A DNA stretch of 23,709 nt, from positions 1-23,709 of IMG/VR virus record IMGVR_UViG_3300017719_000202, one strand, 5' to 3'. A program made the position numbers and the translations under genes. The notes under the pieces are model-generated. The model saw nothing but the letters and a program-made list of their open reading frames with translations, searched no databases and was not told the origin of the DNA. Shown piece by piece: positions 7,565-15,390 of the stretch. How positions within the stretch are numbered: position 1 is the stretch's first letter; each line of letters opens with the position of its first letter. The DNA is from a virus.

Positions 7565-9687
7565 TATTCTTTCTCACCTTTTGTAACTCTTAAAAATTCA
7601 TAGTTTAATCCACCAAACTCTCCTGTGCCACCTATATCGCTATATCCCTGCAACACAATATTTGCAGTAGTAGGCAACATATCATTTGATATGCCTGCAT
7701 AAGAGGTAGGGTCTACACTTACTTTAAATGAAGCATTTAAAGGCGGAGGTGGTGTTGTGGCTGGCATATTATCTATTGTGATGCCTCCTCCTGTTACTGT
7801 TTGTGTTGCAGTAGCAGTTGCGTTAGCAAAAGTCATTGTTATACTTTGTCTAAATCCTAAGTCATAAATGCCTGATAATGTTCCTCCTAAATTAGCACTA
7901 CTGCTGAATTCATAGTCACCTAAGTCTATTCCAGATACATCGTAACTTTCTGGTGTTGTAATATCTCTAAAAGTTGTTGTAGTGTTTGCCAAAATATGAC
8001 TATTAGGTTGGTCTGTTAACTGCGTTCCTGCACCAAATGTTTTCATATGTTGATTTACTAAAACATTACCAAATGTTGTAGGATCTAATGTTGTATTGTT
8101 ATAAGTGCCATTAAAAACACCAGGAATGTATATAGGTCCTATTACTGGTAACGTAGGTATAGTAACATTGGCAAAAGGTGCATCTGTTGTTACTGCAGGT
8201 GTTGTATAAACACTATCTGCATACTCTAAACATACTACTTGGCATGTTAAAGTAGTGTCTTCTGCTTCTGCTTCTTTAATTTGCATAACTCTAAATAGTT
8301 TATCTGTAAAACCATAAGTTTCGTTAGTGAATTTTATAACATCTCCAACATCTACCTGCAAGAAACTGTGATCCCCAGTAAATGTTACTACTTTATCTAG
8401 TCTGGTTTGTTTTAAATCAATATTTGCAAGTATTTCTACTGAAACTTTGTTGTTTACCATTTCTAAACTGTAATTTAGTTTATTATCTGGCTCTCCAGTG
8501 TTTCTGTCAGCACTAGGTGTTTCTACTAATACTGAATTACGTTGATCTCTGCGTTCTTTGTCAAAATATTCTACTTCTACTGCATTATACTGCTGATACA
8601 AGTCAGTATTTTGTATAGATATTTTACTTACAATATTATCATCATTTGCAACAAAACAACTGCTTTGATTTTGATATATTTGGTTAGGTAAACCTTTGTA
8701 TTTGCCCTGTTTGCCATCAAACAGTAAAAAACTACCGCAACTGCTCATTAATTTGTCTAAATTTGTTTGCACATCATCTAATGTGCCCAATGTGCCATTA
8801 ATTTGGAACCTGGGTTGTGTAGCACCTGTGCTAGGAAATTGTGTAAATGATACTGTTTCATTACCATACCCACTTACACTGGAATTACCTGAACCTGTAA
8901 AACTATCAAAGTCAATAAGTGTATTTGCAATGCCGGCTCCGTATCTGTTATTTGTCATATAATCTATAACTACATTTCCAGGTGCTGTTAAACTGTTTAC
9001 CAAGTTAAAAGTCATTGGTTCCATATTAACTAAACCTTCTTCCTGGTCATAATCTATTTCAGTCATAGCAAATACTAAATCTGTTGCTTTGTAATTAGTA
9101 GTATTAGTCCAATGTGGCATCATTGTGGTTGCATCTACGGCTGAAGTAAGGCCACCTGGCACTGGAAATATCTGATTACTTGCGGCTGTGCCTCCTGCAT
9201 ACAGTCTGACACGAATTTTGCCTGACCAGTTAGTATTAGATGTTCCATTTTGATCAAAAACACTTTGCACTATGTGAGCACTTGCTCCAGATCCAAATGT
9301 AAGTTTTTTATCACCAAATCTTATACCCTGACTACCTATAGTAAATGTGCCTGTATCTGTTTTTTCTGATAAAACAGTAAAATAATGCATCATTTTGTTT
9401 TCATTACTGATATTTGCATCACAGATAGGTCCTGATGTTAAAACATCACCATAAACTATTTGTATTTTGTTGCCTGTGTCCGGCGATAATTGTATTCTGG
9501 TGCCTGGGTTTGGTCCTATACCAGGAATATCTGGCATCATCATGGCACCAAATGCTCTGGCAGTTGCCACAGCCAGTCCTGCTACAATAACACCACCAAT
9601 TATGTGTGCCGCAATAGCATTGTGGATTAAATTAGCACCAATATAACTAACTATTTTTTTAAAAATAAAAGGAACTACCTGTGCCAT
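7564..9687 (-). CDS. J-like tail tip / host specificity protein
   Basis: A 707-residue protein that starts with a hydrophobic, amphipathic segment (~20-50, including AHIIGGVIVAGLAVATARAF). A segment follows (PGTRIQLSPDTGNKIQIVYG, ~60-80) of a kind recurrent at the start of J-like central tail proteins. Beta-rich domains follow; ~440-500 (VGDVIKFTNETYG, KLFRVMQIKEAE) resembles the hub-domain 'GDVI.......F RV..I' pattern common in gpJ and T4 gp27-like hubs. In known siphoviruses this protein closes the tail tip and contacts the receptor or DNA-ejection path. It is much shorter than lambda J (over 1100 residues), so host recognition may be shared with the separate fibre genes downstream. One-base overlaps join it to both neighbours. 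Confidence 0.8.
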   Translation of the reverse strand: MAQVVPFIFKKIVSYIGANLIHNAIAAHIIGGVIVAGLAVATARAFGAMMMPDIPGIGPNPGTRIQLSPDTGNKIQIVYGDVLTSGPICDANISNENKMMHYFTVLSEKTDTGTFTIGSQGIRFGDKKLTFGSGASAHIVQSVFDQNGTSNTNWSGKIRVRLYAGGTAASNQIFPVPGGLTSAVDATTMMPHWTNTTNYKATDLVFAMTEIDYDQEEGLVNMEPMTFNLVNSLTAPGNVVIDYMTNNRYGAGIANTLIDFDSFTGSGNSSVSGYGNETVSFTQFPSTGATQPRFQINGTLGTLDDVQTNLDKLMSSCGSFLLFDGKQGKYKGLPNQIYQNQSSCFVANDDNIVSKISIQNTDLYQQYNAVEVEYFDKERRDQRNSVLVETPSADRNTGEPDNKLNYSLEMVNNKVSVEILANIDLKQTRLDKVVTFTGDHSFLQVDVGDVIKFTNETYGFTDKLFRVMQIKEAEAEDTTLTCQVVCLEYADSVYTTPAVTTDAPFANVTIPTLPVIGPIYIPGVFNGTYNNTTLDPTTFGNVLVNQHMKTFGAGTQLTDQPNSHILANTTTTFRDITTPESYDVSGIDLGDYEFSSSANLGGTLSGIYDLGFRQSITMTFANATATATQTVTGGGITIDNMPATTPPPPLNASFKVSVDPTSYAGISNDMLPTTANIVLQGYSDIGGTGEFGGLNYEFLRVTKGEKE

Positions 9688-10139
9688 TATTTACTCCAAC
9701 TGTAATTTGTTTCTAATTTTTGATATCCAAACTTTGTATAATCTACTGGTAGTTTTTCCATACTAGTAATTACAAAGTTGTCTATATGTTTCTTTTCTAT
9801 GAGATCTTCGCCTCTTTTGTTAAACTCTAATATTAAGTTTACGCCTAATTCACTGTGTCTGGCGCTCTCTGACACCCAGAACGCTATTTCTCTTAACCAT
9901 TTAACATCATGCATCCAGATGTTAGGAAATACTGCTCCTATAATAACGCCTTCTATCTTATCTTTATGTTCGCCTACTAATACTACACCTGTTTGCAAAC
10001 AATCAGTAATTAAGTTTCTGATATACCTGTCATTGTATTTGGGATTTTGTAATTCTGACAGCTCATTGTAATTTGCCATTTCTATAAGCAACTCCATTAC
10101 TCTGTCGTAATCTGCAAATACTGGTGTTCTGATATTCAT
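9687..10139 (-). CDS. GNAT-fold N-acetyltransferase-like protein in tail module
   Basis: A 150-residue protein with a GNAT layout. An N-terminal strand-helix (MNIRTPVFADYDRVMELLIE) is followed by a central strand pair (VVLVGEHKDKIEGVIIGAVF), then WLREIAFWVSESARHSELGV where the acetyl-CoA binding loop is expected, and a late helix-strand (HIDNFVITSM). The canonical Q/R-x-x-G-x-G/A loop is degenerate (ARHSELGV), so activity is uncertain. The substrate is unknown: a virion protein or a host target is possible. It lies between the hub gene and the J-like gene, sharing one base with each, so it is co-expressed with late tail genes. Phage tail modules sometimes carry such a gene, and its role there is not established. 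Confidence 0.75.
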   Translation of the reverse strand: MNIRTPVFADYDRVMELLIEMANYNELSELQNPKYNDRYIRNLITDCLQTGVVLVGEHKDKIEGVIIGAVFPNIWMHDVKWLREIAFWVSESARHSELGVNLILEFNKRGEDLIEKKHIDNFVITSMEKLPVDYTKFGYQKLETNYSWSK

Positions 10140-10810: not shown

Positions 10811-11481
10811 TATATAATTGTTTCCATTAATTCAAAGTCACCTGTAAATTCTATAAGGTCATAAGGCACTACACTATATGTAGGGTTTTGTAAGCAAGTT
10901 AAATTAAAATAAACTTCTCTGCCAAGTCTAAGACCACCACTAGTTAATGACACACCAGGCTGATCTATAATTGGTCTGTTTACCTGAACATGAACATTTG
11001 AACTTGTGCTGTATGCAACTTCTGTAGTAACCTGATAAGGGTATTTGTATGTTTGTGTATTGCCATGTGGTTGTAAAAAATCACCAACTTTAAACATAGT
11101 TCCTGAACCTGCACTAATATTTGTAGCATCTATATATAATGTTGAACCTGAAAATCCATTAAGTGTAAGTCCATTTATACCATATGATGAATTTGTTATA
11201 CCGCCCTGATATTTTGTAATATAATCTAATTTTTGTGTGCCATCATTACCTATAGATACATTACTACTTACAGTAACATCTAAAACATCTAATCCAGTAA
11301 GCAACTCTCTGTTTGTAGAGTATGTTAGTCCTTGTGGTGCACCCACAGTAAATCTGTATAAACCTCCCTGTTGCACACTTGTCTTCAAATGGCCACTTCT
11401 GGATATTGTGCTACCTGCACTTTTTCTCTGGTTTATTGTTATAAAACCTGTTTTGTCTATAACTTCTTGTAATGCATCCAT
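10810..11481 (-). CDS. Minor tail protein, possibly distal tail protein
   Basis: A 223-residue protein directly after the tape measure gene, with a one-base overlap on each side. It is beta-rich, with segments such as GGLYRFTVGAPQGLTY, FKVGDFLQPHGNTQTYKYPY and EVYFNLTCLQNPTYSVVPYD. The first residues (MDALQEVIDKTGFITI) are more helical. The gene's place (tape measure, this gene, hub, J) is that of the distal tail or lambda M/L-like proteins, which attach the tip to the tube. No catalytic motif is visible. The assignment rests mainly on synteny. Confidence 0.6.
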   Translation of the reverse strand: MDALQEVIDKTGFITINQRKSAGSTISRSGHLKTSVQQGGLYRFTVGAPQGLTYSTNRELLTGLDVLDVTVSSNVSIGNDGTQKLDYITKYQGGITNSSYGINGLTLNGFSGSTLYIDATNISAGSGTMFKVGDFLQPHGNTQTYKYPYQVTTEVAYSTSSNVHVQVNRPIIDQPGVSLTSGGLRLGREVYFNLTCLQNPTYSVVPYDLIEFTGDFELMETII

Positions 11482-13646
11482 TATCTTGCTCCTGGTATTC
11501 TTCTGGCACCTGCTCTGGTGACACTATATATAAATTCTGGATCTGATGCCACTAATGCTTGGAAACTGGGTGCATCCACGGCATTTATATTGTATATAAC
11601 ATTAGTTGACATACCATTTGCTTGTAAACTACCTGAGCTAGAAGGTCTAAATATTTCTGGTCCATTTTCGCCAACTAGCACTGGTCTGTTAGGCATTAAG
11701 TTACCACCTCCAGCACCTGTTTGTTTAAATCTGCCTAAGAAACCAGATCCACTTAAACCTGCAATAGATCCTGTTGGTCCTACTGAAAAACCAATTGCTT
11801 GTAATATTGGTATAATGAATAACATTTTTATTGCATCTGCTATAAGTTGTTTTACTAGTGTGCTAAAAAAGTTTTTAAAACTATCCAGGGCACTTTTACC
11901 TTCCATTAGTGAGGTTGCTAAATCATCTGCTAGGGTATCTGTTGCTCTATTTAAAACTGATATAAAATCTACTAGAGATTCATTATCTCCCAGTTTTTCA
12001 TCTAATTGTTCTTTAGCGTCTGCAAATTCATCTGCAGAAATTTTACCTGCATTCAATAGTCCTGTTAATGCTGTTAGTTTATCATTATATTCTGAAATAC
12101 TGTCAACATCGTCGAAACTTTCTAAAAACTTATCAAACTCTTCATTTATATTAAATGCATCTTTTAAGGCATCTAAGGCACTTTCATAATCTTTTATTTC
12201 TTTTACTGTTTTAGGATCACCTAATGCTTCATTTAATTTTAATAATTCTGCTTCAAAAGTAGATGCAGAAGGCACAACATCATCTAACATTTCCATATAT
12301 TTTTGTAATGCAGTCAATGTTTTTGCAATAGGTGTTTCTGCCTCAGGTTCCATATCAAACAATGTGCCATTGTCAGTTAATTCGTTAAATTCGTCTGTTG
12401 CTTTTTTTAATTCACTTGCATCAAATAACTCTCTGGGTGGACCCATTTTTTCTGCAAAGTCTTCTGCAACCTCTGAAGCACCTTCCATGGCATTTTTTAA
12501 ACCGTTTATACCTAATACTGTTCCACCAATCCACAATAAACCTTCACCCACTTTTTGCGCGGCTAATTTTAATCTACCTAAGCCTGATAGTATATCGTTA
12601 GGTCCTTCTTTTCTAAATAGTCTACCTATTGCTTTACCTGCCGCAGTAAAAGGTGCTATAAAGAATTTTTTAACACTATCTTTAATTTTTACTAAAAGTG
12701 CCAGTAGTCCTGCCCCACCGGCGGCAAATATACTTGTTCCTTTTTGTAAACTAAACATAGCCTTTGATGCGGCTCCGAGTGCTCTTGCAAATGGGAATAT
12801 AATTGTTGCCACAGCAAATATCTGTGCTAAACCTTTTCCTATTTGCAATAGGCCATCCATGTTTTCTGCTAATTTGTTTATGGCAGATGTTAGGCCTTGT
12901 ATGCTTGTTGCGGCGTCTTCACTAAATGTGTCAAATAATGCCTTTTGAAATTTATCTGTGGCATCGCCTAACTGGTTAAGTTCAAAGTTTATTAAGCCTA
13001 CCTGAGTTGCTAATGCTCCACCAAATCTTTGATTTAATCCTGCAATTAAGCCGTCTGTAATTATTTTAGCACCAGCGGCTGTTTTACCAAATTCTGATAA
13101 TTCATTTCTGGATTTACCAATCTGTTCTTTTAATATTGCAAATACAGGAACACCTCTGTCCTGTAATCTTTGCAAGTCAACTAAACCTAAACCACCATCA
13201 GTTGTTCTGGTTAATAGATCTAATGCGGCTGTTAATGTGCCTGCTTGGTCTGTTGATACAGAAGCCGTGTCGGCAAATGTTTGTAGTAACTGGTCAGTAG
13301 GTTCAATACCAGCACCTTTTAATTGTATAAATGCACCAGTTAAAGTTTGAACTGAAAACTGTGTTGAAGCGGCAAACTGGTTTACCCTATCAAATGCGGC
13401 CGCGCCTTGATCTACACCACCAAATACAACATTTAAACTGTTTTGTAAGTCCTGGAATGCGGCACCTGTTGCCACAATTCCTCTTAATGCCTCAGCACCA
13501 CCCAGTGCCGCAAGAGCGGCTCCTACTTTACCTATACCTATACTACTGTTTTTACTAAACTTATCGACTTTTGCTTCACTTTGAGTGATATTTCTGTCAA
13601 ATTGTTTATTGTCTAGTGTTAATGCTACTTCTATTTTTTTAGCCAT
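11481..13646 (-). CDS. Tape measure protein
   Basis: A 721-residue protein, among the longest in the cluster, with a typical tape measure layout. The N-terminus has helical 'DNKQFDRNITQSEAKVDKF' spacing. A phage tape-measure domain covers ~50-230 (RGIVATGAAFQDLQNSLNVV; AASTQFSVQTLTGAFIQLKG; DRGVPVFAILKEQIG). Hydrophobic segments lie at ~265-295 and ~590-620 and a charged coiled region at ~440-570. Near the C-terminus is the family signature PVLVGENGPEIFRP. In known siphoviruses the protein sets tail length at about 1.5 Angstrom per residue, which would give a tail of roughly 105-110 nm. It is chaperoned by G/GT, encoded just upstream. Confidence 0.93.
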   Translation of the reverse strand: MAKKIEVALTLDNKQFDRNITQSEAKVDKFSKNSSIGIGKVGAALAALGGAEALRGIVATGAAFQDLQNSLNVVFGGVDQGAAAFDRVNQFAASTQFSVQTLTGAFIQLKGAGIEPTDQLLQTFADTASVSTDQAGTLTAALDLLTRTTDGGLGLVDLQRLQDRGVPVFAILKEQIGKSRNELSEFGKTAAGAKIITDGLIAGLNQRFGGALATQVGLINFELNQLGDATDKFQKALFDTFSEDAATSIQGLTSAINKLAENMDGLLQIGKGLAQIFAVATIIFPFARALGAASKAMFSLQKGTSIFAAGGAGLLALLVKIKDSVKKFFIAPFTAAGKAIGRLFRKEGPNDILSGLGRLKLAAQKVGEGLLWIGGTVLGINGLKNAMEGASEVAEDFAEKMGPPRELFDASELKKATDEFNELTDNGTLFDMEPEAETPIAKTLTALQKYMEMLDDVVPSASTFEAELLKLNEALGDPKTVKEIKDYESALDALKDAFNINEEFDKFLESFDDVDSISEYNDKLTALTGLLNAGKISADEFADAKEQLDEKLGDNESLVDFISVLNRATDTLADDLATSLMEGKSALDSFKNFFSTLVKQLIADAIKMLFIIPILQAIGFSVGPTGSIAGLSGSGFLGRFKQTGAGGGNLMPNRPVLVGENGPEIFRPSSSGSLQANGMSTNVIYNINAVDAPSFQALVASDPEFIYSVTRAGARRIPGAR

Positions 13647-13936
13647 TATGATACTCGCTTGATGTAATTTTTAATTAGTTGATCTAATTGTTTAATGCTG
13701 GGCTCTGTGAATCCATTTGGTGCTTGTTTGCTCCAACCTGTATCTAACCGCTCAGCATAAGGATATTTACTGCTAATGGTTGCCCTGTTTAATTTAGTTT
13801 TATTACGAGCGTTTCCGGATCGTATAGGTGTTTTATTTACATAATAAGGATATAATGTTTTCATAACAGAAATAGGCATTTCATCTAGATCATTAATTAA
13901 CCTGTCGAATTGCCTTGTATTAATTGTTAGTTTCAT
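13646..13936 (-). CDS. HK97-gp10-like tail completion/neck protein
   Basis: A 96-residue basic protein. The sequence TPIRSGNARNKT followed by YPYAERLDTGWSKQAPNG matches the pattern 'TP.RSG.LR...YA...E.G' of HK97-gp10-like and minor tail Z-like proteins, which act in joining tail to head or completing the tail. The start at ATG 13936 has GAGGAA directly upstream and overlaps the end of the T frame by 17 bases. It shares one base with the tape measure start. The position between chaperones and tape measure is unusual, since relatives normally lie between the adaptor and tail tube genes. Confidence 0.6.
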   Translation of the reverse strand: MKLTINTRQFDRLINDLDEMPISVMKTLYPYYVNKTPIRSGNARNKTKLNRATISSKYPYAERLDTGWSKQAPNGFTEPSIKQLDQLIKNYIKRVS

Positions 13937-14180
13937 TTCCTCTTACACTTTCCATTGCTTTTATTAAACTTTCTTTGTCATAATCCTGGTGTGCTGTCCC
14001 GTTATGTTTATTATTTGCATGTCTTTCATAACTTACTGCTACATCCATAACCATTAAATCAAATGTATCACCATGTTGTATCAAATGACTTGGCAAAACA
14101 CTATATCGTTTTGCTATTGCATCTAACATCAGTATACTATTGGTATCTGCTGATCCCTCTACTATCTGATGTGTTGTTAC
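13920..14180 (-). CDS. Tail assembly chaperone T extension (made as G-T fusion)
   Basis: This frame is open from 14240 and overlaps the end of G in the -1 frame. After slippage at 14180-14186 it would add 86 residues (starting VTTHQIVEGSAD) to the 97-residue G, giving a 183-residue fusion. The only ATG is at 14129 and has no Shine-Dalgarno, and the sequence before it (SADTNSILM) reads as normal protein, so independent initiation is unlikely. LDAIAKRYSVLPSHLIQHGD resembles the T-part 'IA..F...P..I' pattern of siphovirus chaperone fusions. In lambda, gpG and gpGT bind the tape measure protein and load tail tube subunits. A stand-alone 69-residue product cannot be excluded. Confidence 0.75.
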   Translation of the reverse strand, partial: VTTHQIVEGSADTNSILMLDAIAKRYSVLPSHLIQHGDTFDLMVMDVAVSYERHANNKHNGTAHQDYDKESLIKAMESVRGNETNN

Positions 14181-14470
14181 TTCCCCAACTCTGATGTTAT
14201 CAGTGTTACTGCCTCCATAATGACATCTAATGGTAACACATTACCATCTTTAACTACTGCATTGCCATCTTCATCTAATATCATATCCTGTATTAGTTCA
14301 GTCACACCTGCAGTATCCTCTTTTGCGTTTGCTAATTTAGTAAACACGTCTAGTGGTTGTCTGTCGTAAATGTGGAATTCTAATTCTTCACCGTATTTTT
14401 CTACGATTGTATCCTTATCAATCAGGATTTTAATTAGTTGTGGTTTTTGTGATAGTTCACTTAATTTCAT
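14177..14470 (-). CDS. Tail assembly chaperone G
   Basis: A 97-residue acidic protein. It starts at ATG 14470 with TATAGGAG upstream, whose TAG is the stop of the previous gene. Sequence such as LSELSQKPQLIKILIDKDTI and YGEELEFHIYDRQPLDVFTK fits the short alpha/beta domain of siphovirus tail assembly chaperones. Position between tail tube and tape measure is the lambda G/T position. It ends in a -1 shift site leading into the T frame, which strongly supports the identity. The G:GT ratio is set by frameshift frequency in known phages. Confidence 0.75.
   Translation of the reverse strand: MKLSELSQKPQLIKILIDKDTIVEKYGEELEFHIYDRQPLDVFTKLANAKEDTAGVTELIQDMILDEDGNAVVKDGNVLPLDVIMEAVTLITSELGK
14180..14186 (-). 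promoter_or_regulatory. Candidate -1 frameshift site, G GGG AAG
   Basis: In the G frame the last codons are TTG GGG AAG TAA. A -1 shift lets the glycyl tRNA re-pair perfectly on GGG and the lysyl tRNA on GAA, with one G-U pair. The lambda site is G GGA AAG, so this differs by one base. It lies in the 61-base overlap of the two frames, one codon before the G stop, which could pause the ribosome. Confidence 0.65.
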
Positions 14471-14479
14471 ATCTTTCTC

Positions 14480-14668
14480 CTATAAATCTTTATTTTCGTC
14501 TTGCTGACGTTGTTTTAAATTCTGAACAGCACTATTTACAAATGCTATTCTGCTTGATGCTTTATCTACATCTCTATATGCACATTTCATTTCGTTCTGT
14601 GCTTTAGCCATCTCGGCTTCAATCGATATCAGTATCTCTGCTATCGTGTGATCGTTCCAAATCTTCAT
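14480..14668 (-). CDS. Small coiled-coil protein, unknown
   Basis: A 62-residue, mostly helical protein (HTIAEILISIEAEMAKAQNE; SSRIAFVNSAVQNLKQRQ) that could form a coiled coil. It starts at ATG 14668 with GAGGA five bases upstream, overlapping the preceding gene by 50 bases in another frame. The ribosome binding site makes an independent product likely. I do not recognise a family. It lies between tail tube and chaperone genes, so a tail-assembly role is possible. Confidence 0.6.
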   Translation of the reverse strand: MKIWNDHTIAEILISIEAEMAKAQNEMKCAYRDVDKASSRIAFVNSAVQNLKQRQQDENKDL

Positions 14669-14843
14669 CTTTTTCCTCTATATCTGTATTTATTGTTTCT
14701 GCAGTTTTTTGCTCATTTCCACCAAAGTGTAATGCGTTAAATTCTGCCATAGTATATCCTTTGCCTTCCCAAGTAAATTTATCACTTGCTTTTGCATGTT
14801 TACACCAATCTTTAAATCTTTCAACTGTTGTTGCTTTTAACAT
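14619..14843 (-). CDS. Small conserved-looking protein, unknown
   Basis: A 74-residue protein from ATG 14843, with GAGGA seven bases upstream. The N-terminal two-thirds (FKDWCKHAKASDKFTWEGKG, then YTMAEFNALHF) looks like a folded domain; the 'W..HA....KFT.EGK.YT' pattern recalls small unknown phage proteins. The C-terminus is highly acidic (EEKDEDLERSHDSRDTDID). It is the first gene after the hairpin that follows the tail tube gene. No function can be assigned. Confidence 0.6.
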   Translation of the reverse strand: MLKATTVERFKDWCKHAKASDKFTWEGKGYTMAEFNALHFGGNEQKTAETINTDIEEKDEDLERSHDSRDTDID

Positions 14844-14910: not shown

Positions 14911-15390
14911 TTATGCCACACTTGCGTTAGCAAAGTCTCCGTCTACCTCAATAGTTACTGGTGTAACCCAAACTGGGCTATCCATGTTTACTGTTGGAGC
15001 AAGTCCACTAATAAAACCACTACCAGATAGGTATTTGCTTCCACTGTCAGTTCCTTGGAACCCAGCATTGAAGAATACTCTGGTTTTGTTTTTACTACAA
15101 CCAAACAATCCTGTTGATACAACTGTATCTACAGCGGCGCCTGTGCCAAAGAAAGCGGCATCATCTACAACAACGTTCAGAGTAATCTGGTTTGTTGCTG
15201 GTGTTGTCACTGCACTTTCGGCTGTGTTATCTAGAGTTTTAAATCTAAAAACGCCTGTCGAATTGTTTAAAGTTATGTCTTGCATACGAGGGGTTGTGAG
15301 TCCACTACTTCCGGCAATGTTGGCATTAGCGGCACTATCCCCTAGGACTAATACTGCTTCTGATCCTGCACTTACATTAATTATCGCCAT
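14911..15390 (-). CDS. Major tail tube protein
   Basis: A 159-residue beta-rich, Gly/Ala/Thr-rich protein (MAIINVSAGSEAVLVLGDSA; DITLNNSTGVFRFKTLDNTA; NQITLNVVVDDAAFFG; SPVWVTPVTIEVDGDFA). Composition, size and position (after the tail terminator candidate and before the chaperones) fit the tail tube protein that polymerises into the hollow tail. It starts at ATG 15390, with a strong AGGAG eight bases upstream and an ATAATAGGAG leader. It is followed by the hairpin at 14863, which fits a high-expression structural gene. Fold assignment would need structure prediction. Confidence 0.75.
   Translation of the reverse strand: MAIINVSAGSEAVLVLGDSAANANIAGSSGLTTPRMQDITLNNSTGVFRFKTLDNTAESAVTTPATNQITLNVVVDDAAFFGTGAAVDTVVSTGLFGCSKNKTRVFFNAGFQGTDSGSKYLSGSGFISGLAPTVNMDSPVWVTPVTIEVDGDFANASVA

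Follow-up and report, generated by a model that had tools for sequence, protein, structure and literature searches.

The tail gene region of an uncultured phage very probably uses a -1 programmed frameshift of the lambda type to yield a GT tail assembly chaperone fusion, judging by the conservation of its sequence. That ribosomes slip at this site, at what rate and in which product ratio, and that the products act as chaperones, we infer from the arrangement of the frames and from their persistence in a large set of relatives.

Organization of the locus

The window, which is the whole stretch of DNA analyzed, is a 23,709-base fragment from IMG/VR. The features of the locus, given in the direction of transcription, are the following.

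14911..15390, minus strand: probable major tail (tube) protein, assigned purely by position; found at the same place in 52 relatives
14477..14481, minus strand: AGGAG Shine-Dalgarno (SD) motif of G, 6 nt upstream of the G ATG and common to most relatives
14177..14470, minus strand: G, putative short form of the tail assembly chaperone, 97 aa; open reading frame with relatives at 46-95% identity and a fold match
14180..14186, minus strand: candidate slippery heptamer G_GGG_AAG; G_GGR_AAR at the equivalent codon in 68/68 loci
14177..14179, minus strand: 0-frame TAA stop adjoining the heptamer; TAA/TAG at the equivalent place in 64/68 loci
14126..14172, minus strand: predicted downstream RNA hairpin, separated from the heptamer by a 7-nt spacer, with the basal stem ACAUCAG/CUGAUGU
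13920..14180, minus strand: T, extension of 86 aa plus stop in the -1 frame, predicted to be translated only after the shift; conserved in 68 loci
13920..14470, minus strand: GT fusion product of 183 aa, predicted from the frames
13646..13936, minus strand: 96-aa reading frame between T and the tape measure gene, tail completion/Neck1-like (phrog_169, E 2.9e-9)
11481..13646, minus strand: tape measure protein (Pfam TMP_3, E 9.5e-16)

On the minus strand, the 3' end of G reads GAG TTG GGG AAG TAA. The open T frame extends from 14240 to the stop at 13922-13920. An earlier reading made from the letters of the window (the sequence-only reading) had given these frames and coordinates, the 183-residue fusion and GGGGAAG at 14186-14180 followed by TAA, all of which we find in the sequence. 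It had also described the ATG at 14129 as the only one of T, which was mistaken, as this is the first of four in-frame ATGs, with others at 14054, 14048 and 13955.

The order of tube candidate, G/T and tape measure gene is conserved among the relatives, with the tape measure present in 52 of them. No Pfam or PHROG family matched the presumed tube gene at 14911..15390. The Neck1-like reading frame follows T in 59/59 representatives; its location between T and the tape measure gene was unexpected. Between the presumed tube gene and G, two reading frames on the minus strand (14480-14668 and 14619-14843) overlap by 50 nt in different frames; the 62-aa one of the two has its own AGAGGA ribosome binding site and was found in 58/59 relatives. 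Further along, a 150-aa reading frame amid the tail genes (9687-10139, minus strand) looks by eye like a GNAT acetyltransferase. The window contains no tRNA genes and gave no Rfam matches.

In the proposed mechanism, most ribosomes would halt at the TAA and release the 97-aa G protein, while a minority would shift back by one base at G_GGG_AAG and then read on in the T frame, completing the 183-aa GT. The hairpin 7 nt downstream would make these ribosomes pause, as perhaps would slow termination at the adjoining stop. The function of G and GT in assembly is transferred from lambda (reviewed in PMC5009743); by this analogy, G would coat the tape measure protein, while tail tube subunits would be recruited by the T portion of GT.

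Conservation of the slip site

An initial search found 19 relatives that possess both frames, and T lies at -1 directly from the end of G in all of them. A search with a G profile found 289 relatives in IMG/VR, of which 80 were retained, and 68 loci, the window included, are distinct in sequence around the junction. G_GGR_AAR stands at the same codon, with T at -1, in every one of these loci: 51 carry GGGAAAG, the heptamer of lambda, 13 carry the GGGGAAG of the window and 4 carry GGGAAAA. Since the relatives were found by similarity of the G protein and the heptamer was not used, this count is free of circularity. Elsewhere in these G genes the heptamer occurs in frame at 0 of 5575 positions. 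The arrangement of heptamer and T is far beyond chance; the sequence-only reading had held that relatives should keep both the heptamer and the overlap, and they do so without exception.

Because the residues Leu-Gly-Lys that end G are conserved at the protein level, the fair test of selection on the nucleotides is offered by the wobble bases, which were compared in 60 representatives less than 95% identical to each other. The Gly codon of the slip site is GGA or GGG in 60/60, versus 26% of all other Gly codons of G and T. The preceding Leu codon ends in G in 56/56, versus a background of 22%, and the remaining four representatives have ATG instead of a Leu codon, so that the G base is kept while the residue is changed. 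Because the representatives are related, the nominal probabilities (<1e-30) are overstated; the number of exceptions is nonetheless zero. The Lys codon is AAG in 56/60 representatives, a preference that is partly confounded, as the final base of AAG doubles as the start of the Val codon of T. When the site was searched for directly in its GGC and GGT forms, 22 stretches turned up, all of them outside this phage family. Among 26 matches to the GGGGAAG pattern, two were unrelated.

The codon that follows the heptamer in the 0 frame is the stop listed above, and the Val codon overlapping it is GTA in 52/55 cases versus a background of 43%. By this measure a stop adjoining the heptamer is favoured. 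The sequence-only reading had considered this position of the stop unusual, whereas in this phage family it is the rule. Four loci (L009, L034, L037 and L098) have no 0-frame stop adjoining the heptamer, and their G extends for 5-6 codons more, which indicates that the adjacent stop is favoured, yet not essential.

Structure downstream of the slip site

The hairpin downstream of the heptamer had no place in the sequence-only reading. In the window its energy corresponds to z = -4.4, and 0/200 shuffles were as stable; against a synonymously recoded null that preserves the T protein, p was 0.002. When all representatives were taken together, the segment immediately past the slip gave the strongest structure signal of the positions tried in T and G (mean z -1.4), but several relatives, and some clades, show no downstream structure. 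In the clade of the window, the stem has kept its pairing through changes on both sides at 4 pairs, the base pair being A-U, C-G or U-A depending on which of three lineages is considered, and 87.5% of the cells are paired versus 27-48% in slid controls, these values coming from only 4 distinct sequences. The spacer of 7 nt lies within the 4-10 nt past the motif at which hairpins should start according to the rule of Sharma et al. 2014 (PMC4066793). A stimulator resembling a Shine-Dalgarno sequence was seen upstream of the slip in 2/60 representatives, the window not being among them.

A second type of hairpin was observed in L015, L063, L085, L097, L052 and L055. It is a short TCTCATC-GATGAGA-like stem closed by a loop of 5 nt, begins 5-6 nt past the heptamer and takes the place of the longer stem seen in the clade of the window. 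This short stem may partly follow from the conserved residues H-x-I-D-E. Loci with GGGGAAG did not have significantly stronger structure downstream (p 0.06 with no correction for the tree; per-origin mean -1.8).

The GGGGAAG variant and the possible mode of slippage

GGGGAAG departs from the X_XXZ_ZZN rule in that its fourth base is G, whereas the GGGAAAG of the relatives conforms. A quick method placed 7 changes between GGG and GGA at the slip on the tree, at least 4 of them on supported branches. GGG accounts for 11/60 of the GGR codons at the slip (11:49) versus 20/120 elsewhere (20:100; p 0.84), and with this equal share there is no visible selection against GGGGAAG. The family may tolerate the weaker pairing in the A site; alternatively, the P site may be what mainly determines the shift. 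No significant association on the tree was found between GGGGAAG and the preceding TTG codon.

In the window's clade, Gly-tRNA would re-pair perfectly on GGG. If the slip were tandem, Lys-tRNA would re-pair on GAA with one G-U pair and the junction would read ...LGKVTTH; if only the P site slipped, Glu-tRNA would replace Lys-tRNA and the junction would read ...LGEVTTH. Tandem re-pairing of Lys-tRNA on GAA is possible, and a P-site-only slip with Glu is equally allowed. There is an appreciable, though less than even, chance that the slip is not tandem, with either Gly-tRNA slipping in the P site only and Glu being read from GAA, or peptidyl-Lys-tRNA slipping at the TAA. This would be a sub-mechanism within frameshifting, not an alternative to it. 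The perfect re-pairing on G_GGG, compared with the G-U pair required for the move from AAG to GAA in the A site, agrees with such a slip, as does the retention of the stop next to the heptamer. GGG is also not rarer at the slip, as if cognate re-pairing in the A site mattered little. By contrast, the preference for AAG is what slippage of tRNA-Lys predicts, but the base concerned is the one shared with the T Val codon. With a strong stimulator, C_AAG gave 0.93% in the work of Sharma et al. (PMC4066793), who ascribed this value to a shifty Lys-tRNA, so that Lys-tRNA may slip with imperfect pairing.

In E. coli, the best sites of Sharma et al. 2014 (PMC4066793) are ones at which the tRNA in the A site re-pairs cognately. 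Their test set was made up of only the 64 canonical heptamers and 16 tetramers (PMC4066793); GGGGAAG lies outside it and therefore has no value there. Among the papers searched, the single one containing both GGGGAAG and 'frameshifting' is an unrelated breast-cancer study. A more tentative extension, in our view less likely than not, would be that G_GGG_AAG is a working -1 site reached repeatedly from G_GGA_AAG, with cognate re-pairing in the A site dispensable in the hosts and with a shift that is driven by the P site, helped by stop and hairpin, and leaves Glu at the junction.

Probable reading of T through the junction

The sequence of T is conserved from its first codon, with VTTH or VTSH in most loci. 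Over codons 2-16 of T, which precede any T ATG, substitutions counted in non-overlapping pairs of relatives fell 52/40/120 on codon positions 1/2/3 (p 4e-12). ATG, GTG and TTG are absent from the first 15 T codons in 53/60 representatives and from the first 30 in five. An SD-like sequence precedes a T start in 3 representatives only, at codons 27-28, and the window is not among them: from the opening of its T frame through the first 30 codons, none was found before a start codon. The remark of the sequence-only reading that the start at 14129 lacks a ribosome binding site thus holds. It had also named a stand-alone T with its own binding site as the finding that would speak against the frameshift; no relative showed a usable start for T near the junction that is preceded by a ribosome binding site. 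The coding signal at the slip and the scarcity of start codons together make a stand-alone T gene very unlikely.

We accordingly regard it as highly improbable that T is a separate gene, on which translation would re-initiate past the stop of G, at the ATG at 14129 or at some other start. This ATG is present, the GGGGA run just upstream of the G stop could be a weak Shine-Dalgarno sequence, and Sharma et al. 2014 (PMC4066793) suspected such an artefact in G_GGG constructs. However, the conserved sequence and the coding signal start at the slip, which lies 17 codons upstream of 14129, the ATG itself is not conserved among the representatives, and the fixed wobble bases of G_GGR would be left unexplained. 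In one locus, L076, T is truncated by a stop at codon 33; as its near relative L077 is intact, this stop may be a sequencing error or reflect a defective copy.

Least probable of all is that transcriptional slippage joins the frames, or that the break is an indel or a sequencing error, since despite the four-G run of the window the identical -1 break is found at the same codon in 68 independent sequences, 55 of which (55/68) have just three G at the site. Transcriptional slippage sites are usually much longer runs of A or T (cf. PMC3711429).

Identity of the proteins

G and T of the window matched no Pfam or PHROG family. Among their relatives, 8/59 members gave a weak Pfam match to Phage_TAC_13 (PF16459; best E 0.007), and one T member matched the tail chaperone family phrog_183. 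An AlphaFold2 model of G (pLDDT 85) resembled a predicted tail assembly chaperone in BFVD with a TM score of 0.89 (E 2.3e-9). In the PDB, the first-ranked Foldseek match of this model was the HK97 chaperone 2ob9 (E 0.078; Z 5.4, moderate), and a moderate Z of 4.3 was obtained against YqbN. The predicted T structure is helical, has middling confidence (pLDDT 73) and resembled only unnamed phage proteins. A search of PDB sequences found nothing, and direct hhalign comparisons of G with HK97 gp13 and of T with lambda T gave no match. Taking the fold of G, the conserved gene order and the -1 architecture together, a G/GT tail assembly chaperone is the best-supported identity, as far as sequences and models can indicate.

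The GT fusion, consensus T and the capsid protein found no match in 50,697 phage records. Consensus G gave a match to a Listeria phage enzyme (E 0.01), which was rejected as an internal chance match. No relatives were detected in bacterial genome contigs. The terminase shares about 42% identity with its counterparts in Vibrio and Pelagibacter phages, and the GC content is low (37%). A marine origin and the host are guesses drawn from these two features; no relative of the tail or capsid proteins was found among cultured phages.

Comparison with known systems and significance

The likeness to lambda G/GT lies in the -1 direction, the product logic and the position between the tube and tape measure genes. 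The lambda heptamer, G_GGA_AAG, is the exact site of 51/68 relatives, whereas the window has G_GGG_AAG. The stop adjoins the heptamer in the window and lies 6 codons further on in lambda; the window also differs in the compact hairpin that follows after the 7-nt spacer. T is 86 aa long compared with 144 aa in lambda, and similarity between the two T sequences was not detected. HK97 has an annotated -1 fusion, gp13/gp13-14, and G is structurally similar to 2ob9 without similarity in sequence. In the HK97 overlap the only plausible site, G_GAA_AAG, is also non-canonical, with its mismatch in the P site. The GGGGGAA chaperone sites of actinobacteriophages (PRFect, PMC10885494) are likewise non-canonical and G-rich, and G-U re-pairing at GGGGGAA was proposed by the authors of that study (PMC10885494). 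GGGGAAG does not fit the XXXYYYZ pattern of PRFect, and a motif of four G and two A is not obviously among the motif names in PMC10885494.

While the G/GT mechanism of the lambda type is well known, the comparisons made here support a new, uncultured family of it, which has a recurrent variant of the slip site and a conserved hairpin. With its 289 relatives in IMG/VR, this phage family, abundant but both uncultured and unannotated, would join those with the lambda-type chaperone frameshift. Since GGGGAAG and GGGAAAG alternate at one codon within this family, it offers a natural comparison of two sites, by which the role of re-pairing in the A site may be tested.
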